Assembly: GCA_016875405.1 (NCBI GenBank) | Contig: VGRJ01000043.1 | Location: 1-33,209, forward strand | Reading direction: 5' to 3' | Length of the DNA: 33,209 bases | From: Deltaproteobacteria bacterium | Lineage (GTDB): Bacteria; Myxococcota_A; Polyangia; Polyangiales; Polyangiaceae | In this document: positions 16,966 to 31,949 of the stretch, in pieces | How positions within the stretch are numbered: position 1 is the first letter of the stretch | Layout: every line of letters begins with the position of its first letter | Position numbers and translations under genes: made by a program | The notes under the pieces: model-generated | What the model saw: the letters and a program-made list of their open reading frames with translations, nothing else | Database searches by the model: none | What the model was told of the DNA's origin: nothing

Positions 16966-19542
16966 TCAAGCCTGCAACACCGGCAGCTTCGCCTTCGCGG
17001 CCTTGGTCACGTAGGTCTTGATCTGGTCGAAGTTCATGTAGCGGTAGAGATCCGCCGCCATCGAGTCGAGGCGCGTCGCGTACGTCATGTACTCCTCGAC
17101 CGTCGGCAGCCGCCCGAGGATCGAGGCGACCGCCGCGAGCTCGGCCGAGGCGAGGTAGACGTTCGCGCCCTTGCCGAGGCGGTTCGGGAAGTTCCGCGTC
17201 GAGGTCGAGACGACGCTCGAGCCCGGGTTCACCTGCGCCTGGTTCCCCATGCAGAGCGAGCAGCCCGGCATCTCGGTGCGCGCGCCCGCGCCCGCGAACA
17301 TGTTGTAGTAGCCCTCTTCCATCAGGAGCGCTTGGTCCATCTTGGTCGGCGGCGCGACCCAGAGGCGCGTCGGCACCGGCCCGCCGAACTCCTTCAAGAG
17401 GCGCGCGGCGGCGCGGAAGTGGCCGACGTTCGTCATGCATGAGCCGATGAACACCTCGTCGATCGTGTCGCCGGTGACGGCGCTGAGCGGCTTGATGTCG
17501 TCGGGGTCATTCGGGCACGCGAGGAGCGGCTCCTTGATCTGGTCGAGGTCGATCTCGATGACGGCCGCGTACTCGGCGTCCTTGTCGGCCTCCATGAGCT
17601 CGGGGTTCGCGAGCCACTTCTCCATCGCCTGGGCGCGGCGCTCGATGGTGCGCACGTCGCCGTAGCCTTCGGCGATCATCCAGCGGAGCATCGTCACGTT
17701 CGAGCGCAGGTACTCGATGATGGGCTCTTTGTTCAGCTTGATCGTGCAGCCCGCCGCCGAGCGCTCGGCCGAGGCGTCGGTGAACTCGAAGGCCTGCTCG
17801 ACCTTGAGATCCGGCAAGCCCTCGATCTCGAGGATGCGCCCGGAGAACACGTTCTTCTTGCCCTGCTTCGCGACCGTGAGGAGCCCCGCCTGGATCGCGG
17901 CGTAGGGGATCGCGTTCACGAGGTCGCGGAGCGTGATGCCGGGCTGAAGCTTGCCCTTGAAGCGAACGAGCACGCTCTCGGGCATGTCGAGCGGCATGAC
18001 GCCGAGCGCCGCCGCGAAGGCGACGAGGCCCGAGCCCGCCGGGAACGAGATGCCGATCGGGAAGCGGGTGTGGCTGTCGCCGCCGGTGCCGACGCCGTCG
18101 GGCACGAGCATGCGGTTCAGCCAGCTGTGGATGATGCCGTCACCCGGCCGCAGCGAGATGCCGCCGCGGTTCGTGATGAAGTCGGGCAGCGTGTGCTGCG
18201 TCTCGATGTCGACCGGCTTTGGGTACGCGGCCGTGTGGCAGAACGACTGCATGACGAGGTCGGCCGAGAAGCCGAGGCAGGCGAGCTCCTTCAGCTCGTC
18301 GCGCGTCATCGGGCCCGTGGTGTCCTGCGAGCCGACGCTCGACATCGAGGGCTCGCAGTAGGTGCCGGGACGGATCCCGCGCACGCCGCACGCCGCGCCG
18401 ACCATCTTCTGCGCGAGCGTGAAGCCCTTGCCCGAGTCGGACGGATCGGCGGGCAGGCGGAAGGCCGTCGACGGGCCGAGCCCGAGGGCCTCGCGCGCCC
18501 GCTTCGTGAGGCTGCGCCCGATGATGAGCGGGATGCGCCCGCCGGCCTGTACCTCGTCGAGGAGCACGTCGGTCTTGAGGGCGAAGGTCGCGAGCGTCTC
18601 GCCGGCCTCGTTCGTGACCTTGCCCTCGTAGGGGTAGAGGACGATGACGTCGCCCATGTGGAGCTTCGAGACGTCGCACTCGAGCGGCAGCGCGCCCGAG
18701 TCTTCCATCGTGTTGAAGAAGATCGGCGCGACCTTGCCGCCGATGCAGACGCCGCCCGAGCGCTTGTTCGGGATGAAGGGGATGTCGTCGCCGAAGTGCC
18801 AGAGCACGCTGTTCGTCGCGCTCTTGCGGCTCGAGCCGGTGCCGACGACGTCGCCGACGTAGGCGACCGGGTGGCCCTTCGCCTGCACGGCCTTGATTTG
18901 CTCGAGGGCGTTCGTGATGCCCTCGCGCGGGTTCTTCAACATCGCGAGCGCGTGGAGCGGAATGTCCGGGCGCGACCAAGCGTCCTGCGCGGGCGAGAGG
19001 TCGTCGGTGTTCGTCTCGCCGGGCACCTTGAAGACGGTGAGCGTGAGCTTCGCGGCGAGCTTCGGGCGGCTCGTGAACCACTCGGCGTCGGCCCACGACT
19101 GGAGCACGGCCTTCGCGTGCGCGTTGCCCTTCTTCGCGCGCTCGGCGACGTCGTGGAAGGCGTCGAACATGAGGAGCGTCTTCTTCAATTGCTCAGCCGC
19201 GAGCGGCGCGAGCGGCGCGTCGTCGAGCAGGGCGACGAGGGGCTGGATGTTGAAGCCACCGAGCATCGTGCCGAGGAGCTCGACCGCCTTCTCCTTCGAG
19301 ACGAGCGGGCTCTTCGCCTCGCCCTTCGTCACCGCGGCGAGGAAGCCGGCCTTGACGTAGGCCGCGTCGTCGACGCCGGCAGGCACGCGCTGGGTAAAGA
19401 GCTCGAGGAGGAAGGCCTCCTCGCCGGCGGGCGGGCTCTTCAAGAGCTCGACGAGCGCGGCGGTCTCGGCGGCCGAGAGAGGCTTCGGAACGATCCCCTG
19501 GGCGGCGCGCTCCTCGACGTGCTTGCGGTAGTCCTGCAACAT
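16966..19542 (-). CDS. acnB: Aconitate hydratase B / 2-methylisocitrate dehydratase
   Basis: An 858-residue AcnB-type aconitase (E. coli AcnB has 865), interconverting citrate and isocitrate in the TCA cycle and often also acting on 2-methylisocitrate. It starts with the AcnB-specific N-terminal helical region ([22 protein letters not shown]). The swivel domain includes [20 protein letters not shown]. The [4Fe-4S] ligands are Cys702 (FIGSCMTN), Cys761 and Cys764 ([10 protein letters not shown]); the 59-residue spacing is the same as E. coli Cys710 to Cys769. GGAAG lies 8 bases before the ATG at 19542. It is divergent from a LysR-type regulator gene, with a palindromic site between them, which suggests local control. 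Confidence 0.96.
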
Positions 19543-19654
19543 GGCTTCGCTTCCTTTTCGAGGGCGCGGCGGCGCGGAGTCGGCCCGCGCTTGGCCCTCG
19601 CACCGAGGATGTATCCCTCGGCAAGTCATGCAAAAAGCGGATAATATGCATAGC

Positions 19655-19677
19655 ACTCATGCGTTTTACGCATGAGT
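19655..19677. promoter_or_regulatory. Perfect inverted repeat with T-N11-A core, predicted LysR-family operator
   Basis: ACTCATGCG and CGCATGAGT form 9-bp arms around TTTTA. The inner TGCG-N5-CGCA fits the T-N11-A box of LysR-type regulators. It lies between the divergent acnB and lysR-type genes, 9 bases before the lysR-type ATG. On the minus strand a -10-like TATTAT (19646-19641) lies just downstream of it, so the site would overlap the -35 region of acnB. That position fits activation of acnB and repression of the regulator's own gene. Confidence 0.65.
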
Positions 19678-19686
19678 TGACCACCC

Positions 19687-20571
19687 ATGGATCTGCTGCT
19701 CGTCCGCTCGCTCCTCTCAGTCGCCCGCGAGGGCACCATCGGCCGCGCTGCGAAGCGCCTCGGCGTGTCGCAGTCGGCCCTCTCGCGGCGGCTCCAGCAG
19801 CTCTCCGAGGTGCTCGGCGCCGAGGTCCTTTCGCCCCATGGTCGCGGCGTCGTCTTGACCGAGGCGGGGAGGCTCGTCGTCGCCGAGGGTTCGGCGCTCG
19901 TCGAGCGCTACGAGCGCATGCGGGCCGAGCTCGTCGCGCTCGGCAAGCTCGAGGCGGGCACGGTGCGGATCGGCGGCGGCGCGACGGCGGTGTCGTACCT
20001 GCTCCCGCGGGCGATGGCGCGCTTCCGCGTGCGGCACCCTGGGGTGAAGTTTCGGCTCGAGGAGGCCGGCAGCCGCGAGGTCGAGGCCGCCGTGCTCGAA
20101 GATCGCGTCGAGCTCGGGGTGGTCACGCTGCCGGTCCGCGCGCGCGAGCTCGAGGTGCGGCCGCTCCTCCGCGATCGCATCGTGCTCGTCGCGGCGACCG
20201 ATCACCCACTCGCGAAGAAGCGCCGCGTGGTGCCGGGCGATCTCGCGGGGCACGCACTCATCGGCTTCGAGGGCGGGAGCGCCATCCGGCGGCTCATCGA
20301 CGGCGCGCTCGCCTCGGCGGGCGTCGAGGCGAACGTCGTCATGGAGGTGCGCAGCATCGCGGCGATCTTGCGGCTCGTCGACTCGACGTCGAGCCTCGCC
20401 TTCGTCAGCGCGATGAGCGCCGAGGGGCGGCCTGTCGTCGAGGTGCGCGGCCTCACCATCGAGCGCGAGCTCGGCCTCGTCACGCGGCGCGACCGGGCGC
20501 TGTCCCGCGCGGCGGCGGCCTTTGCGGACGAGCTTGCGAAGGCGGCGGGGCGGGTCGAGCGGCGGGGGTGA
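19687..20571 (+). CDS. LysR-family transcriptional regulator
   Basis: A 294-residue LysR-type regulator. The N-terminal winged helix-turn-helix is clear: LLLVRSLLSVAREGTIGRAAKRLGVSQSALSRRLQQLSEVLGAEVL, then LTEAG. The C-terminal co-inducer domain starts with GTVRIGGGATAVSYLLPRAMARFRVRHPGVKF, and includes the ELGVVTLPVRARELEVRPLLRDRIVLVAATDHPLA segment. Length is normal. The gene is divergent from acnB with a T-N11-A palindrome between, so acnB is the likely target and the effector might be a TCA or methylcitrate intermediate (inference). No good ribosome site precedes the ATG. Confidence 0.94.
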   Translation: MDLLLVRSLLSVAREGTIGRAAKRLGVSQSALSRRLQQLSEVLGAEVLSPHGRGVVLTEAGRLVVAEGSALVERYERMRAELVALGKLEAGTVRIGGGATAVSYLLPRAMARFRVRHPGVKFRLEEAGSREVEAAVLEDRVELGVVTLPVRARELEVRPLLRDRIVLVAATDHPLAKKRRVVPGDLAGHALIGFEGGSAIRRLIDGALASAGVEANVVMEVRSIAAILRLVDSTSSLAFVSAMSAEGRPVVEVRGLTIERELGLVTRRDRALSRAAAAFADELAKAAGRVERRG

Positions 20572-25456: not shown

Positions 25457-26367
25457 CCGCACGAGCCTCGGGCTTGCGAGCAACCCGGCACACCCTCGCC
25501 CGTCAGCTGGCGCGAGCCCTCGCGTGCTTCCTCGTCAGCACCGCGCTCGGCTGCGCGAGCACCCAGTCCGTGACGCGGGAGGCCGGCCGAACCAGGGTCA
25601 GCGGCACCTTCGAGATCCCGCCGGACGGAGGACTCGCCGCATCGCTCGAGAGTTGGCCCAACGAGCTCGCGGTCCGGCTCACCCTCCGGCGCGACTGCGT
25701 CCGCATCGAGGCCGGCAGCGTCCAGCGCGCGACCGCGACGACGACGCGCCCCGACCCCGCGGCGACGTGGCTGCAGCTTGCGTCCGGCGTGACGCTCGCG
25801 GTGTCGTCCGGGCTCGTGCTCGGGAACGCGATGCCCGACGCCGACCCTCACTGCATCCGCACGGAAGACGGGTGCGTGTCATCGCGCGGTGGCGCCGTGG
25901 TGGGCGGGACGCTCCTCGCGCTGACCGCGGTCCCGCTGCTCGCGTCGGCGGTCCACGACCTCGCGACGGGCGATCGCACCACGGTGAGCGTCACCTCGGA
26001 GCCCTACGACCTGCGCCAAGAGCGCCAGGCGTGCGGCGCGGCGAAGGACCTCGAAGGCTCGATGGTCCTCCTCGACGACGAGGTGCTCGGCTTCCCCTCG
26101 GCGCGCGTCGACGCGAGCGGGTTGGCGCGGCTGCGCCTCGCTCCACCGCCCGCCGGCGCAGTGCCGCGAACCCGGCGGCTCGTGCTCTCGGAGCCATCCG
26201 CCGGGGCCGCGCGGCTCGCCTCCCGCGACCTCGTGCTCGCACGCGTGGAGCTCCCCGGCAGCGCCTTACCGCCGCGCGCCAGCGCCGCAGACCCTAGCGT
26301 GCCCCGAGCCGACGTACCCGCTCCGAGCGAGGCCCGCGAGGCTTCGCCGTTCAGCCCGAGTCGTTGA
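25453..26367 (+). CDS. Lipoprotein with two hydrophobic segments, second of a paralogous pair
   Basis: A 304-residue predicted lipoprotein (Cys34, ALGC), paralogous to the preceding gene. Hydrophobic stretches are at about residues 104-127 and 145-170, with HCIRTEDGC between them. These are followed by QACGAAKDLEGSMVLL and SARVDASGLARLRL, matching the same positions in its neighbour. It differs by a Pro/Ala/Ser-rich C-terminal tail of about 45 residues. The ATG overlaps the stop of the first gene (ATGA), so the pair is cotranscribed and probably coupled. The last 17 bases overlap the end of the convergent cysN gene. Function unknown. Confidence 0.82.
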   Translation: MTARASGLRATRHTLARQLARALACFLVSTALGCASTQSVTREAGRTRVSGTFEIPPDGGLAASLESWPNELAVRLTLRRDCVRIEAGSVQRATATTTRPDPAATWLQLASGVTLAVSSGLVLGNAMPDADPHCIRTEDGCVSSRGGAVVGGTLLALTAVPLLASAVHDLATGDRTTVSVTSEPYDLRQERQACGAAKDLEGSMVLLDDEVLGFPSARVDASGLARLRLAPPPAGAVPRTRRLVLSEPSAGAARLASRDLVLARVELPGSALPPRASAADPSVPRADVPAPSEAREASPFSPSR

Positions 26368-27646
26368 CCAGCATCGTCGCCGCGACGGTCTCGCCGTCCG
26401 CCGGATCGACGAGCAGCGCGCTGCCGAGCGCCCGGTCCTGCGCGTAGGAGGTCGCGAGGATCGGCTCGCCGAGCACGACCTGGAGCCGACCGAGGTCGTT
26501 CAGCTTGAGCTCGTCGGCCGGGGTGGTGGCGCCCGTCGAGACGTCGAGGCGATGCGAGACGCCGACGAGCTTCGCCTGCACCCGTCGGCTCTGGTGTTTG
26601 AGCCAGAGGCGCATCCCGGCGCGTGCCGGGCGGGTCGCGAGCCAGGCCGCGTCGAGGGTCACGCTCTGCCGCAACTGGAGCCCGTCAGGAAGGGCCGCGC
26701 CTTGCACGACGTAGGCGCCCCGCCCTGCGTCGACGTCGTCGGCGAGGCTCACGACGATCGACTCGCCCGACTCCGCGAGAGCCTGGCCGCCGACGTCCCC
26801 GATGACATGGCGGTCGATCCGCGTGACCGAGCTCTCCAGCATTCCGGGAGCGACGAGGACCCGATCGCCGACGGCCATGCCTCCGCCGACGAGCCGACCG
26901 GCGAGGCCGCGGAAGGTCGCGAAATCCTCGCGCTGCGGACGGATCACCCACGCCACCGGCAGCACGCCCACCCCGAGCGTCGAGGGCGCGACGCGCACGG
27001 TCTCGAGTGACTCGAGCACCGCGGGACCGTCGTACCAAGGCATCCGCGTCGAGCGCTCCACCACGTTGTCGCCGTCGAGCGCACACACCGGGATGAAGCG
27101 CAGCCGCGTCTCCCATGGGAGTGCCTCGACGTGCCGCCGCGCCTCCGCGGCGAGCGACTCGAAGCGGGCCTCCTCGAAGCCGACGCGGTCCATCTTGTTC
27201 ACGACCACGAATACGACGGGCACGCGCAAGAGCGCGGTGATCGCGAGGTGCCGGCGCGTCTGCTCCGTGAGACCTCGCTCGGCGTCGATGAGGACGATGG
27301 CGGCCTCGGCTTGCGACGCACCGGTCACCATGTTGCGCGTGTACTGGACGTGCCCGGGTGTGTCCGCGAGCACGAAGCGGCGGCGCGGCGTCGCGAAGTA
27401 GCGCCAAGCGGCGTCGATGGTGATGCCCTGCTCTCGCTCGGCGCGCAGGCCATCGGTGACGAGGGCGAGCTCGGTGCGCGAGAAGCCACGGCGGGCGCTG
27501 ACCTCCTCGATGTGCGCGAGCTGGTCGCGCATCAAGGCGCGCGCGTCGAGCAGGATGCGGCCGATCAGCGTGCTCTTGCCGTCGTCGACGCTGCCCGCCG
27601 TCGCGCAGATCAGCGTGCCGAGCGTGGGTGGGGTGACGTCGCTCAT
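26351..27646 (-). CDS. cysN: Sulfate adenylyltransferase subunit 1 (GTPase)
   Basis: A 431-residue EF-Tu-like GTPase subunit of ATP sulfurylase. GTP hydrolysis by CysN drives formation of adenosine 5'-phosphosulfate (APS) by CysD. The GTPase motifs are G1 GSVDDGKST (residues 18-26), G2 ITID, G3 DTPGH (95-99) and G4 NKMD (150-153), followed by two beta-barrel domains. It ends where CysN ends, with no fused APS kinase (CysC). It follows cysD with TGATG overlap. The 3' end overlaps the convergent lipoprotein gene by 17 bp. Confidence 0.96.
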   Translation of the reverse strand: MSDVTPPTLGTLICATAGSVDDGKSTLIGRILLDARALMRDQLAHIEEVSARRGFSRTELALVTDGLRAEREQGITIDAAWRYFATPRRRFVLADTPGHVQYTRNMVTGASQAEAAIVLIDAERGLTEQTRRHLAITALLRVPVVFVVVNKMDRVGFEEARFESLAAEARRHVEALPWETRLRFIPVCALDGDNVVERSTRMPWYDGPAVLESLETVRVAPSTLGVGVLPVAWVIRPQREDFATFRGLAGRLVGGGMAVGDRVLVAPGMLESSVTRIDRHVIGDVGGQALAESGESIVVSLADDVDAGRGAYVVQGAALPDGLQLRQSVTLDAAWLATRPARAGMRLWLKHQSRRVQAKLVGVSHRLDVSTGATTPADELKLNDLGRLQVVLGEPILATSYAQDRALGSALLVDPADGETVAATMLVNDSG

Positions 27647-28563
27647 CAGAAGTAGCCCTCGCGCTTGCGGTCTTCCATCGCAGCCTCGCTAAACTGGTCG
27701 TCGGCGCGCGTCGCGCCCCGCTCGGTGACGTCGGCCGCGACGATCTCGCCGATCACCTCGTCGAGCGTCGACGCCGTCGAGCGCACCGCACCGGTGCACG
27801 TCGCGTCACCGACCGTCCGGAAGCGCACCGAGGTGCGAAACGGCACCTCGCCCGGTCCCGGCGCCATGACGTCGGTCACGGCGTAGAGCATCCGACCGCG
27901 CTCGAACACCTCCCGCTCGTGGGCGAAGTAGATCGAGGGGAGCGCGAGGCCTTCGTCAGCGATGTACTGCCACACGTCGAGCTCGGTCCAGTTCGAGATC
28001 GGGAAGACCCGCAGGTGCTGCCCGCTCCGGACGTGGAGGTTCAACACCTGCCAGAGCTCGGGTCGCTGCTTGCTCGGATCCCATTGCCCGAGCTCGTCCC
28101 GCACGCTCACGATGCGCTCTTTCGCGCGCGCTCTGTCCTCGTCGCGGCGGGCTCCGCCGAAGAGCACGTCGAAGCGATGCTCGTCGACCGCCTCGAGCAA
28201 GGTCACCGACTGCAGGCGGTTGCGGCTCGCCCGCGGGCCGGTTTCGTCCTGCACCGTGCCGCGTGCGATCGAGTCCTCGACCTTCGCGACGATGAGCCGC
28301 TCCCCGAGCGCGGCCACCTTCGCGTCTCGGAAGGCGAGCACCTCGTCGAAGTTCTGGCCAGTGTCGACGTGCAAGAGCGGAAAAGGAAACCGCCCCGGGC
28401 GAAACGCCTTCTCGGCGAGGCGCAGAAGGACGATCGAGTCCTTGCCGCCCGAGAACAGAAGGGCGGGTCGCTCGCGCTCGGCGCTCGCCTCGCGAAGCAC
28501 GTGGATGGCCTCGTCCTCGAGGCGCCTCAGGTGGAGGTTGTTGCCGGTGGCCACGCACTCCAT
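27646..28563 (-). CDS. cysD: Sulfate adenylyltransferase subunit 2
   Basis: A 305-residue catalytic subunit of ATP sulfurylase, of the PP-loop ATP pyrophosphatase superfamily. The PP-loop is SGGKDS (residues 38-43). Conserved CysD segments follow: HVDTGQNFDEVLAFRD, FGGARRDEDRARAKERI, FPISNWTELDVWQYI and the C-terminal EAAMEDRKREGYF. The length matches the family. It is the first gene of a minus-strand cysDN operon and is divergent from cysH with only 53 bp between the start codons. A palindrome lies in that gap. Confidence 0.97.
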   Translation of the reverse strand: MECVATGNNLHLRRLEDEAIHVLREASAERERPALLFSGGKDSIVLLRLAEKAFRPGRFPFPLLHVDTGQNFDEVLAFRDAKVAALGERLIVAKVEDSIARGTVQDETGPRASRNRLQSVTLLEAVDEHRFDVLFGGARRDEDRARAKERIVSVRDELGQWDPSKQRPELWQVLNLHVRSGQHLRVFPISNWTELDVWQYIADEGLALPSIYFAHEREVFERGRMLYAVTDVMAPGPGEVPFRTSVRFRTVGDATCTGAVRSTASTLDEVIGEIVAADVTERGATRADDQFSEAAMEDRKREGYF

Positions 28564-28565
28564 TG

Positions 28566-28585
28566 TAGAAGACAGCTGTCTTGTA
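28566..28585. promoter_or_regulatory. Palindrome in the cysD-cysH divergent promoter
   Basis: AAGACAGCTGTCTT (28569-28582) is a perfect 14-bp palindrome, and two more base pairs match on each side after one mismatch (28566-28585). It begins 2 bases before the cysD start codon on one side. On the other side it overlaps TTGTAA (28581-28586), which is 18 bp from TAGACT (28605-28610), a fair -35/-10 pair for cysH. It is well placed as an operator for both sulfur operons. The regulator is not in this window. Confidence 0.55.
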
Positions 28586-28610
28586 AAGCAACCTTGGCGT
28601 CGGTTAGACT
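28581..28610 (+). promoter_or_regulatory. Candidate cysH promoter giving a leaderless mRNA
   Basis: TTGTAA at 28581-28586 and TAGACT at 28605-28610 are spaced by 18 bp. The cysH ATG is only 6 bases after the -10 element, where transcription itself would be expected to start. No ribosome site fits in between, so a leaderless message is likely if this promoter is used. Confidence 0.4.
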
Positions 28611-28616
28611 CGCACC

Positions 28617-29372
28617 ATGACGGTCGCGAGCGAGGAGACCCCCTCGGAGGAGGCGCCCTGGAGCGCGTGGATCGACTGGTCGGTCGCGCGGTTCGGGGCG
28701 TCCCTGAGGCTCGCGTGCAGCCTGAGCGTGGAGGACACGCTGCTCGTCGACGCGCTTGCCGAGAGCGCCGCCCGCCGCGGCCTCGCTCGCAGCCATGCGC
28801 CGCAGGTGTTCGTCCTCGATACCGGCCGGCTTCACGAAGAGTCGTACCGGGTCCTCGCGTCGCTGCGTGAGCGTTACGACCTCACGTTCGACGTCCGAGC
28901 GCCGGCGACGCGGAGCCTCGAGGACCTCGTGCGAAACCGGGGACCGCTGTCGTTTTACGACTCGGTCGAGGCGCGCCGCGAGTGCTGCGGGATCCGCAAG
29001 GTCGAGCCGCTCGCGCGCGCGCTCGACGGCGCCTCTGCCTGGATGACCGGCCAGCGGCGGGCGCAGGCGGTGACACGGACGAGTCTCCTGCCGCTCGAAC
29101 GCGACGACGCCCACCGCGGCATCGCCAAGGTGAACCCCCTCGCGCTCGTGACCGACGAGGCGCTGTGGGCCGAGGCCGAGCGCCGCAGCGTCGTCATCCA
29201 CCCGCTGCATCGCCAGGGCTACCCGTCGATCGGCTGCGCGCCATGCACGCGGGCCGTCGCGCCGGGAGAGGACGCGCGCGCGGGGCGCTGGTGGTGGGAG
29301 GATCCCGCCCACAAGGAGTGCGGGCTCCACGTCGCGCGCTCCAATCCCCAGACGGGGGGGAAGCCGACATGA
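28617..29372 (+). CDS. cysH: Assimilatory adenylyl-sulfate (APS) reductase
   Basis: A 251-residue reductase that converts activated sulfate to sulfite using thioredoxin. The four iron-sulfur Cys that mark the APS-reducing type are present: Cys123-Cys124 (RECCGIRK), Cys207 and Cys210 (GCAPC). The redox Cys235 lies in KECGLH. Those [4Fe-4S] Cys are absent in PAPS-type CysH, so the substrate should be APS. This agrees with the absence of an APS kinase in the cluster. The start ATG at 28617 is the first possible one. The stop overlaps the next start (ATGA). Confidence 0.95.
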   Translation: MTVASEETPSEEAPWSAWIDWSVARFGASLRLACSLSVEDTLLVDALAESAARRGLARSHAPQVFVLDTGRLHEESYRVLASLRERYDLTFDVRAPATRSLEDLVRNRGPLSFYDSVEARRECCGIRKVEPLARALDGASAWMTGQRRAQAVTRTSLLPLERDDAHRGIAKVNPLALVTDEALWAEAERRSVVIHPLHRQGYPSIGCAPCTRAVAPGEDARAGRWWWEDPAHKECGLHVARSNPQTGGKPT

Positions 29373-30010
29373 GCCGCACGCCGGGCCTTCCGCTCGTGCT
29401 CCGCCTCGAAGGACGCCGCGTGCTGCTCGTCGGCGCGGGCACCATTGCGGCCGGCAAGCTCGCCGCGCTGCTGCGGGCTGGCGCGCGGGTCCGCGTGGTC
29501 GCCCCTGCCGTCACCGAGGAGGTGGCTCGCCTCGCCGAAGATGCCGGCGCCGAGGTCGTCGTGCGCGAGGTGACGGAGAGCGACCTCGACGACGTGCGCT
29601 TCGTCGTGACGGCGACGCCCCACGCGGTGTCGCGGCAGGTTCGCGGCTGGGCCGACGCGCGGCGGCTCCTCTTGCTCGCGGTGGACGACGTGGCCGCGAC
29701 GGACGCGCACTCGCCCGCGGTGTTCGAGCGAGGCGGCGTGACGATCGCGCTCTCGAGCGACGGTCGCGCCCCGGCGCTGGTTGGCTTTCTGCGTCAGCTG
29801 CTCGAGGCGGCGCTCCCCAGCGAGGAGGAGCTAGCCGAGTGGCTCCGCCTCGCCGACGACGAGCGCGCTATCTGGAAGGCCGAGGGGCTCCCGCTGGGCG
29901 AGCGTCGAAGGCGGCTCGTCGGGCGGCTCTGCGAACAGGGTGGAGCCTGCCGCCACGTCGCGCCGAGCGAGGCTCCCGACCCCACGGGAGCCGCCGAGGT
30001 CCAGCCGTGA
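29369..30010 (+). CDS. Precorrin-2 dehydrogenase / sirohydrochlorin ferrochelatase (siroheme synthase N-domain)
   Basis: A 213-residue protein corresponding to the N-terminal part of CysG (Met8p-like). It oxidises precorrin-2 with NAD and may insert iron to give siroheme, the cofactor of the nearby sulfite reductase. It has the Rossmann motif VLLVGAGTIAAGKLAALLRAGARVRVVAP, then VRFVVTATPHAVSRQV, the VDDVAATDAHSPAVFERGGVTIALSSDGRAPALVGFLRQLLE segment, and a helical tail. The methyltransferase domain found in fused CysG is absent, so uroporphyrinogen-III methylation must come from another gene outside this window. It is coupled to cysH by a 4-base overlap. Confidence 0.92.
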   Translation: MSRTPGLPLVLRLEGRRVLLVGAGTIAAGKLAALLRAGARVRVVAPAVTEEVARLAEDAGAEVVVREVTESDLDDVRFVVTATPHAVSRQVRGWADARRLLLLAVDDVAATDAHSPAVFERGGVTIALSSDGRAPALVGFLRQLLEAALPSEEELAEWLRLADDERAIWKAEGLPLGERRRRLVGRLCEQGGACRHVAPSEAPDPTGAAEVQP

Positions 30011-30024
30011 GCGCGCCCGCATAA

Positions 30025-31002
30025 ATGACTTCTCTCAATTGCATACTCGGACTCCTCGGGGCCTGGTTTGCGCTCAACATGGGCGCGTCAGGGCTCGCAC
30101 CGTCGTTCGGCGCGGTGCTCGGCGCGCGGGTGGTCGAGGCTCCTCGCGCGCGCTGGCTCTTCGCGGGCTTCGTGATCCTGGGCGCGCTCGTGCTCGGCCC
30201 CACGGTCGCGAAGACGCTCTCGTCGGGGATCGTGCCGGTCGAGCGCTTCGACGCTCGCGCGACCCTGGTCGTTCTGCTGGCAACGAACGTGGCGATGCTG
30301 GTCGCGAACCTCGCGGCGATCCCGCAGTCGACGTCCTGGGTGATGGTCGCGGCGCTCGTCGCGCTCGGCATTCAGCAGGGAGCGCTGCTGACGCGCACGC
30401 TCACCCATCGGCTGCTGCCGGCGTGGCTCCTCCTGCCGCTCGCATCGTTCGGCTTGAGCGCGCTCGTCATGCGCGCGCTGTATCCCCTTCGCGGCGCGAA
30501 GAGCTTCGAGGTCCACGGCTGGCTCTTGCGCCACCGCCGCCTCGCTCACGGCCTCGCGCTGGCGAGCGCGTGCTACGTCGCGTTCGCGATCGGAGCAAAC
30601 AACGTCGCCAACGCCGTCGCACCACTCTCGGCCGCGGGCGCGCTCGAGGTCGGAACGGGGATGCTGGTCTTGTCGCCCCTGTTCGGGGTCGGCGCGCGGA
30701 TGTTCTCGGGGCCCGCTGACACGATCGCCCGCGACATCGTGCCGCTCGGCCTCGTCGCCGCGACGGCCTGCAACGCGATCGTCGCGAGCCTGCTCGTCGT
30801 CGCCTCGAGCCTCGGCCTGCCCCAGTCGCTCGTTCAGCTGAACGCTGCGGCGGTGCTGGGCGTCCTCCTGGTGAAGGAGGGTCGGTCGGGGCTCTTCACC
30901 GGCAAGAAGATGCGGTCGATGCTGGCGTTGTGGGCCATCACCCCTTCGCTGGCGGCGCTCCTCACCTTCGTGGCGCTCGAGCTCTCGGAGCGCTGGCGAT
31001 GA
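30025..31002 (+). CDS. PiT-family permease, probable sulfate transporter (CysP-type)
   Basis: A 325-residue polytopic membrane protein of the inorganic phosphate transporter family. The second half has the signature GANNVANAVAPLSAAGAL. The equivalent in the first half is ALNMGASGLAPSFGAVLGA, which resembles the NIGASG form of CysP sulfate permeases and not the GANDVAN form of true phosphate transporters. About ten hydrophobic helices are visible. It is located between the siroheme gene and cysK, with which it overlaps (ATGA), so uptake of sulfate is the likely job. Specificity is inferred from context and signature. Confidence 0.87.
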   Translation: MTSLNCILGLLGAWFALNMGASGLAPSFGAVLGARVVEAPRARWLFAGFVILGALVLGPTVAKTLSSGIVPVERFDARATLVVLLATNVAMLVANLAAIPQSTSWVMVAALVALGIQQGALLTRTLTHRLLPAWLLLPLASFGLSALVMRALYPLRGAKSFEVHGWLLRHRRLAHGLALASACYVAFAIGANNVANAVAPLSAAGALEVGTGMLVLSPLFGVGARMFSGPADTIARDIVPLGLVAATACNAIVASLLVVASSLGLPQSLVQLNAAAVLGVLLVKEGRSGLFTGKKMRSMLALWAITPSLAALLTFVALELSERWR

Positions 31003-31949
31003 CCGACGGGCGAACGGCACCGCGCGCAACCATCGCCAGCAGCGTGCTCGACCTCATCGGGCGGACGCCGCTCGTGAGGCTCGACCGCATCGCGCCGAAA
31101 GACGGCGCCGAGATCGTCGCCAAGCTCGAGGGCATGAACCCCGGCGGCAGCGCGAAGGACCGCGTCGCCTACCGCATGGTGCTCGCCGCCGAAGCCGAGG
31201 GCCGCCTCGGGCCCGGCAGCACCGTGATCGAGGGGACGAGCGGCAACACCGGCATCGGGCTCGCGATGGTGTGCGCGGCGCGCGGCTACCGCTGCGTGAT
31301 CGTGATGCCCGACTCGATGAGCCTCGAGCGCATCTACCTCGTGCAGCGCCTCGGCGCCGAGGTCGTCTTGACGCCTGCCAAGGACGACCTGGCGGGCGCG
31401 GTGCGCAAGGCCGAGGAGCTCGCCGCGAAGACGCCGGGCGCGTTCCTGCCGCGGCAGTTCGAGAACGCGAACAACCCGGGCGTGCACGCGACGACGACGG
31501 CCGAGGAGCTCCTCGAGGCGACGGGCGGCCGGATCGACGCGTTCGTTGCGGGGGTCGGCACGGGCGGGACGATCACCGGGGTTGGTCGGGTCTTGCGCGA
31601 GCGCTGCCCGGGCGTGTGCATCGTCGCGGTCGAGCCCGACGGCTCCGCGGTCCTCTCGGGCGAGCGGCCCGGACGCCACAAGATCCAGGGGATCGGCGCG
31701 GGCTTCGTGCCGAAGGTGCTCGATCGGGGCGTGATCGACGCGATCGTCCGGGTGCGCGACATCGAGGCCTTCGAGGCGATGAAGCGGCTCGGCGCACTCG
31801 AGGGGATCAACGCCGGGATCTCGGCCGGCGCGGCGGTGCACGTCGCGCTCGAGGTCGCATCACGCCTGCGGCCGGGACAGCGCGTCGTCACGGTCTTCCC
31901 CGACACGGGCGAGCGCTACCTGAGCTTGCAGCACTACTTCGAATTCTGA
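30999..31949 (+). CDS. cysK: Cysteine synthase (O-acetylserine sulfhydrylase)
   Basis: A 316-residue PLP enzyme that makes cysteine from O-acetylserine and sulfide. The PLP lysine is Lys53 in NPGGSAKDR (most family members have SVKDR). Further motifs are EGTSGNTGIGLAMV, MPDSMSLER, the phosphate-binding GVGTGGTITG, GIGAGFVPK, GINAGISAGAAVHVA and PDTGERYLS. The length matches CysK. The ATG overlaps the stop of the permease gene (ATGA). The last gene of the plus-strand operon cysH-siroheme-permease-cysK, it is convergent with the sulfite reductase gene, 40 bp away. Confidence 0.96.
   Translation: MTDGRTAPRATIASSVLDLIGRTPLVRLDRIAPKDGAEIVAKLEGMNPGGSAKDRVAYRMVLAAEAEGRLGPGSTVIEGTSGNTGIGLAMVCAARGYRCVIVMPDSMSLERIYLVQRLGAEVVLTPAKDDLAGAVRKAEELAAKTPGAFLPRQFENANNPGVHATTTAEELLEATGGRIDAFVAGVGTGGTITGVGRVLRERCPGVCIVAVEPDGSAVLSGERPGRHKIQGIGAGFVPKVLDRGVIDAIVRVRDIEAFEAMKRLGALEGINAGISAGAAVHVALEVASRLRPGQRVVTVFPDTGERYLSLQHYFEF

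Follow-up and report, generated by a model that had tools for sequence, protein, structure and literature searches.

A candidate XRE-cupin repressor and putative paired operators at a divergent cysD-cysH promoter with predicted leaderless messages in Polyangiaceae

Sulfate assimilation is placed under the control of one protein in the familiar cases, either CymR, of the Rrf2 type, or CysB, of the LysR type. The title of a 2015 paper reportedly ties E. coli SutR (YdcN) to sulfur utilization, and the site of PuuR contains TATAATGAAC, like the half-site described below. The SutR motif is palindromic according to the text of one article (PMC8464067). The main text of another describes the XRE-cupin regulators of Pseudomonas (PsdR, PauR, ErfA and others) as proteins that bind palindromic sites as dimers and have few, mostly local targets, with autoregulation in some (PMC7901475). 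As regards translation starts, the text of Zheng et al. 2011 describes TA-led leaderless genes with TANNNT ~12 bp upstream of the start, and leaderless genes are listed there for 8 of 33 delta-proteobacterial genomes, at a mean of 15.8% (PMC3160421). A search of the leaderless-gene literature for Myxococc, Sorangium and Deltaproteobacteria returned no paper on these bacteria by title, and we found no sulfate-assimilation regulator for this lineage in the literature searched (open-access, with subscription papers mostly outside it).

Here we describe a divergent cysD-cysH promoter in a stretch of 33,209 nucleotides, called the window throughout, that spans positions 1 to 33,209 of contig VGRJ01000043.1 of the Deltaproteobacteria bacterium assembly GCA_016875405.1 (Polyangiaceae). 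Our reading, to which we give a probability of about 0.7 and which is drawn from sequence comparison, is that one XRE-cupin repressor acting on paired operators would control cysDN, the cysH operon and its own gene, and that both messages are leaderless.

The divergent gap and its candidate operators

The genes of the sulfate-assimilation block are as follows.

26351-27646, minus strand: cysN, downstream of cysD (PF00009, PF22594)
27646-28554, minus strand: cysD, predicted leaderless, its start corrected to GTG 28554 by comparison with a second locus, C140 (PF01507; CysD models)
28617-29372, plus strand: cysH (PAPS/APS reductase), predicted leaderless (PF01507; NF002537 above cut-off)
29369-31949, plus strand: genes after cysH, namely a sirohaem-synthase-like gene starting at 29369 (PF13241), a PiT-type permease gene starting at 30025 (PF01384) and a cysteine-synthase-like gene starting at 31002 or 31044 (PF00291)

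Beyond the cysteine-synthase-like gene lies a sulfite/nitrite reductase gene on the opposite strand. CysH carries a CC ... CxxC pattern (window 28617-29372), presumably the mark of iron-sulfur APS reductases; the NCBIfam equivalog that it matches above cut-off is phosphoadenylyl-sulfate reductase, and the APS model gives 226 bits against a cut-off of 235. Elsewhere, at 16969-20568, the window contains a gene for aconitase B and, divergent from it, one for a LysR-type regulator.

The gap between the divergent cysD and cysH contains AAGACAGCTGTCTT, a perfect 14-bp palindrome at 28569-28582 that widens to 20 bp at 28566-28585 with one mismatched pair. The preliminary description of this DNA had reported this palindrome, together with a cysH -10 box lying 6 nt before the ATG, and the sequence, the coordinates and the spacing are all confirmed. 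Its 53-bp gap, by contrast, becomes an untranslated gap of 62 bp because the cysD start probably moves to GTG 28554. Among the 11 perfect 14-bp palindromes of the window this is the only intergenic one by our own gene calls; 441 kb of the same genome contain 114 of them (0.26 per kb), which corresponds to ~0.014 expected per 53 bp. With up to two mismatches, the palindrome is found at three places in the 5.02-Mb genome, namely the window, the cysD-cysH locus of C140 and contig C175, where it lies near the start of an open reading frame; the reversed control pattern gave no match at the same stringency and in the same genome. A scan of the window alone at three mismatches yielded a single match, which is not above chance (0.53 expected). 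Neither a tRNA nor an Rfam family above gathering score was found in the window, and since both predicted starts lie downstream of the palindrome, neither message is likely to carry it as an RNA hairpin.

C140 is a second, syntenic cys locus of the same assembly (L031, G000:C140:1-8330), with protein identities to the window of 94% for cysD, 94% for cysN and 71% for cysH, and 90% identity for cysD in DNA. The locus may be duplicated, or the contig may come from a sister strain, the assembly being a draft (218 contigs, 2.33% contamination, 5.02 Mb).

For comparison, 30 cysD loci of the order were fetched, the window being one of them, and the upstream DNA was read for these and for 8 others; a wider contig scan covered at least 80 loci, mostly of Actinobacteria among the matches listed, 7 of which were read. 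A 16-bp TATA-centred palindrome close to GTYCRTTATAAYGRAC was picked by eye before cysD in 12 of the 30 loci of the order. It takes a tandem form, with centres 20 bp apart, in eight loci of the family (L150, L152, L155, L157, L166, L170, L171, L173), and there the outer halves of neighbouring sites join to give GAC-N4-GTC, the core of the palindrome, or a close variant of it. Four loci of another family (L154, L156, L160, L163) have a single copy over a TATAAT that lies 8 nt before the cysD GTG. At the 17 other cysD loci of the 30 no site was picked by eye, and L149 and L151 have related sequences. The lone TATA-centred 16-mers suggest that the operator is the smaller unit, and the palindrome of the window looks like the junction of two such adjacent candidate operators:

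28558-28573: candidate operator 0, CTCCATTGTAGAAGAC (minus strand GTCTTCTACAATGGAG), covering the predicted cysD -10; score 10.9
28569-28582: the 14-bp palindrome, GAC-N4-GTC junction of the two candidate operators
28578-28593: candidate operator 1, GTCTTGTAAAGCAACC, the weaker one, covering the predicted -35 of both promoters; score 6.8

These scores come from a matrix of 20 sites before cysD in relatives, from which the window and C140 were excluded. The operators of the window are degenerate, since 18 of the 20 relatives' sites reach at least 13.8, and the better of the two falls short of 11, the cut-off applied in the gene counts that follow; the C140 pair, likewise 20 bp apart, scores 11.5 and 8.3. 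A single long palindrome, TATARCGGAC-N4-GTCCGYTATA, was rejected as the operator, with matches in 7 of 108 genomes at two mismatches against 2 genomes for the reversed control. The pattern GTCTTNTANAATGRAS has only two perfect matches, in the window and at the regulator gene described below, but it was designed from those two, and at two mismatches its 3 matches do not exceed the 4 of the control. The region upstream of cysH agrees with the regulator's own site at 12 of 16 positions, a likeness also found at one other gene of the 325 compared and weak if taken alone.

That the gap might have no dedicated operator, its symmetry arising from the -10 and -35 elements of overlapping divergent promoters and from chance, is improbable on balance. 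The TATA at the centre of the matrix does resemble a -10 box, and an early family-wide pattern scan gave 25 matches against 15 for the reversed control; 6 of the 25 adjoin cysD and 1 adjoins a metY-like gene, and motif matches also precede genes without a clear sulfur role. However, other genes have -10 boxes too, and yet sites scoring at least 11 precede only 2 of 310 genes of the same genome and, in the cys neighbourhoods of relatives, 4 of 126 non-sulfur genes (an NMT1-like/ABC-transporter pair, an FAD/NAD reductase and a sigma-54 activator). The genome that supplied the 310-gene control is not the one to which most of the homologs discussed below belong, the 126-gene control being closer, and the former lacks the C140 cysD-cysH gap because cysD was called with an early start and cysH was not called. 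Such a site precedes 30 of the 75 genes in the same neighbourhoods that are sulfur genes or diverge from cysD, and many of these sites had built the matrix. The outer GTC/GAC bases, moreover, are not promoter elements, a tandem scan of 441 kb of the genome (two sites of at least 6, 19-21 bp apart) returned the window and C140 only, and the same sites mark the regulator gene.

About as improbable is a reading close to that of the preliminary description, in which the 14-bp palindrome serves by itself as the binding site of some other regulator; LysR, GntR and TetR types would be examples. In its favour the palindrome is perfect, is the sole intergenic one, lies inside the cysD spacer and touches the cysH -35, and a LysR-type gene is present in the window. 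But C140 breaks two of the seven pairs and keeps five, the exact sequence occurs in none of the relatives' gaps that were read, where 16-bp TATA-centred sites are kept instead, the 16-bp unit stands alone in the four loci named above, and the LysR-type gene faces the aconitase B gene. Some of those gaps do have a similar GGAC-N4-GTCC junction (e.g. L173). What stands of the original idea is a single regulator over both sulfur operons, which is probable and might yet be of LysR type, with two 16-mers preferred to the palindrome as its binding sites.

A candidate XRE-cupin regulator

The candidate regulator of the genome itself is L226, encoded on contig C11, a protein with HTH_3 and Cupin_2 domains that is 59% identical to the homolog queried. 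Its N-terminal Cro/CI-type helix-turn-helix matches PF01381 with an E-value of 6.6e-13 and its C-terminal cupin matches PF07883 with 1.5e-11, both above cut-off. The nine families matched by the protein include no SutR model; the PuuR NCBIfam model matches weakly (E 3.7e-07, 29.9 bits), and as an equivalog it was rejected against its cut-off of 211. The core of the helix-turn-helix, SGVSRAALSQIE, is identical in five of five aligned homologs, and by sequence the closest protein of solved structure is 1y9q, a regulator of the HTH_3 family (E 2e-24 for the G066 homolog). The gene lies directly upstream of metY, is divergent from an aspartokinase-like gene and is preceded by GTCTTGTAGAATGAAC, a palindromic putative operator with a score of 13.5. 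Only ~30 bp separate the XRE-cupin gene from the aspartokinase-like gene, and the putative operator falls between them (L226:1244-1280); the XRE-cupin gene may itself be leaderless, with TAGAAT followed after 7 nt by an in-frame TTG. The regulator gene and the cys locus of the window are on different contigs.

Among the relatives' cys neighbourhoods, with protein clusters read by eye and no gene calls from L190, no regulator-type protein is conserved throughout; the shared clusters that look like regulators are XRE-cupin (2 loci), PAS-like (3 loci) and sigma-54 activator (2 loci). The query XRE-cupin gene adjoins cysN in G066, and in G056, G050, G043, G023 and G011 a homolog is found no more than 3 kb from cysH. 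A sulfur gene of the reference set is found within 1.5 kb of the XRE-cupin gene in 12 of the 30 loci fetched, that of the genome itself included. Sites scoring at least 11 occur within 320 bases of 11 of the 15 close homologs, L226 among them, and the other 4 have none at that threshold and distance; among the rows for more distant homologs 4 of 16 have such a site and 12 do not (two rows being the same gene).

A second matrix was built from 11 sites at 8 of the 15 XRE-cupin loci (9 sites with the genus of the window left out), omitting the sites of L217, L223 and L227 and the weaker second sites of L215 and L224. Neither matrix includes the window or C140, and the two are not fully independent, the XRE-gene sites having been found with the cysD-derived matrix. 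Over 441,209 positions of the genome, the XRE-gene matrix ranks C140 first and operator 0 of the window second, or second and fourth with the genus left out; operator 1 alone ranks 97 or 250 with these matrices. In the tandem scan it places the window first and C140 second, both with and without the genus, and 60 column-shuffled matrices all fall short of its score in the gap.

Several other genes near the cys loci and sites are of note in their own right. In four relatives a gene for a small membrane protein, all four in one cluster, separates cysH from the shared promoter (L179:6483-6845, L181:9002-9355, L184:2193-2573, L185:10558-10899); both of the proteins scanned (L179, L181) contain a PQ-loop domain, and it is possibly a transporter of a sulfur compound. 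In G066 the space between divergent NMT1-like and ABC-ATPase genes (L180:163-2206) contains an operator-like site with the high score of 22.2; the two genes are perhaps a sulfonate or sulfate uptake system. In G089 a sigma-54 activator gene with a strong site stands directly upstream of cysD (L182:8386-9396; PF00158); it has 16 matches at 39-50% identity in the genome of the window, with no clear ortholog among them. Sigma-54-activator-like genes with such a site were also seen by eye in L044, L057 and L060, and these activators could add a second level to the control of sulfur. Four family loci (L048, L050, L051, L058) have similar sites, noticed by eye, before a gene for an NmrA-like oxidoreductase, and L049 has one before a peroxiredoxin-like gene; these genes are perhaps targets of related XRE-cupin paralogs.

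Promoters and translation starts

The predicted promoter elements of the gap are listed below, the C140 counterparts having been aligned by eye.

28562-28567, minus strand: predicted cysD -10, TACAAT, 7 nt before GTG 28554 (from sequence; TAAACT at equal distance before a GTG in C140)
28586-28591, minus strand: predicted cysD -35, TTGCTT, 18-bp spacer (from sequence, by eye; TTGCTA in C140)
28581-28586, plus strand: predicted cysH -35, TTGTAA, 18-bp spacer (from sequence, by eye; TTGCAT and 17 bp in C140)
28605-28610, plus strand: predicted cysH -10, TAGACT, 6 nt before ATG 28617 (from sequence; C140 has TATTCT, likewise 6 nt from an ATG; across the genome, TANNNT peaks 6-8 nt ahead of starts)

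Any cysH start before ATG 28617 is excluded by a stop codon, TAG, in frame at 28605-28607, and the next in-frame start codon is a GTG at residue 40, inside the region conserved in C140, which leaves ATG 28617 as the only workable start. The C140 cysH has other possible starts, a GTG right after the box and a GTG after the ATG, and the automatic alignment matches the ATG of the window to the latter. On the other strand, cysD probably starts at GTG 28554 and not at the ATG with first base 28563, because that ATG overlaps the likely cysD -10 and is a CTG in C140, where the GTG is kept. An ATG-first annotation of cysD would then be wrong by three codons.

Both genes have TANNNT 5-8 nt before the start (6 nt for cysH, 7 nt for cysD from its GTG) and no Shine-Dalgarno (SD) sequence; for cysH, no SD-like 4-mer was found 3-11 nt upstream. 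Because both boxes are kept in C140 and cysH has no SD, both messages look leaderless: the cysH message is probably so, as the preliminary description had predicted in finding no room there for a ribosome site, and the cysD message probably so from GTG 28554. The same arrangement recurs through the genome. In 441 kb, a simple codon-usage caller gave 337 genes, and 27 of the 246 leading genes have a TANNNT that ends 5-8 nt before the start, all but two of these 27 lacking an SD-like 4-mer (25 genes), against a mean of 3.1 over ten control windows of equal width; among internal genes the count is 4 of 79. By this spacing, leaderless starts are common in the genome and cysH is an ordinary case, not a special one.

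It is unlikely, by comparison, that cysH is transcribed from a start farther upstream and carries an ordinary leader. The weakness of the cysH -35 would agree with such a start, as would a sigma-70 consensus scan of 28200-29000, which found no promoter, but it would have to be reconciled with the missing SD-like 4-mer, with the TANNNT box kept at 6 nt in C140 and with the clear leaderless peak in the genome.

Proposed control and comparison with known systems

Sequence comparison shows an operator match, an overlap with the promoters, a regulator family linked to sulfur genes and leaderless spacing; from these we infer how binding, repression, ligand and transcription starts might fit together. 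The cysD-cysH gap would be a back-to-back promoter with two adjacent operators 20 bp, or about two helical turns, apart, and the repressor would be the HTH_3 plus Cupin_2 protein encoded upstream of metY. Two dimers on one face of the DNA would lie over the cysD -10 and over both -35 elements, and the bound repressor would block RNA polymerase at both, turning cysDN and the cysH operon off together; through a like site it would act on its own gene. The cupin domain may sense a sulfur metabolite, and once repression is lifted the messages would begin at, or within about a base of, the start codons (cysH ATG 28617 and cysD GTG 28554). That the XRE-cupin protein represses is most likely by analogy, since its Pseudomonas relatives in architecture are described as transcription inhibitors. 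For this lineage, the analysis puts a name to a candidate regulator of sulfate assimilation, delimits a putative operator and predicts the starts to the base. We lean, somewhat less firmly, towards the wider view that across much of the order assimilatory sulfate reduction answers to a dedicated XRE-cupin repressor that also regulates itself, taking the part played elsewhere by CysB or CymR, with tandem TATA-centred operators inside the -10 and -35 elements of divergent leaderless promoters, one element setting both operons.

A CymR-like Rrf2 repressor, a type raised in the preliminary description, CymR itself controlling sulfur genes in Bacillus, is rejected as the protein that binds the gap and has next to no likelihood, because PF02082 matches nothing in this 99%-complete genome, although it matches in 13 of 14 control genomes, which leaves just the missing ~1% for such a gene. 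The locus differs from the CymR and CysB systems in this absence of an Rrf2 gene, and in an operator pattern and a linked gene that point to an XRE-cupin protein. With the Pseudomonas regulators, L226 has the XRE plus cupin architecture in common; the three known motifs there differ from each other, the likeness to the present site is one of description, and the word 'sulfur' is absent from the main text of that paper (PMC7901475). With respect to the TA-led leaderless genes, as that article's text presents them, we see no difference in the cysH and cysD case (PMC3160421). The SutR motif is likewise comparable with the present site through its description as palindromic (PMC8464067). In contrast to both SutR and PuuR, the predicted targets here are cysDN, cysH and the regulator's own gene.
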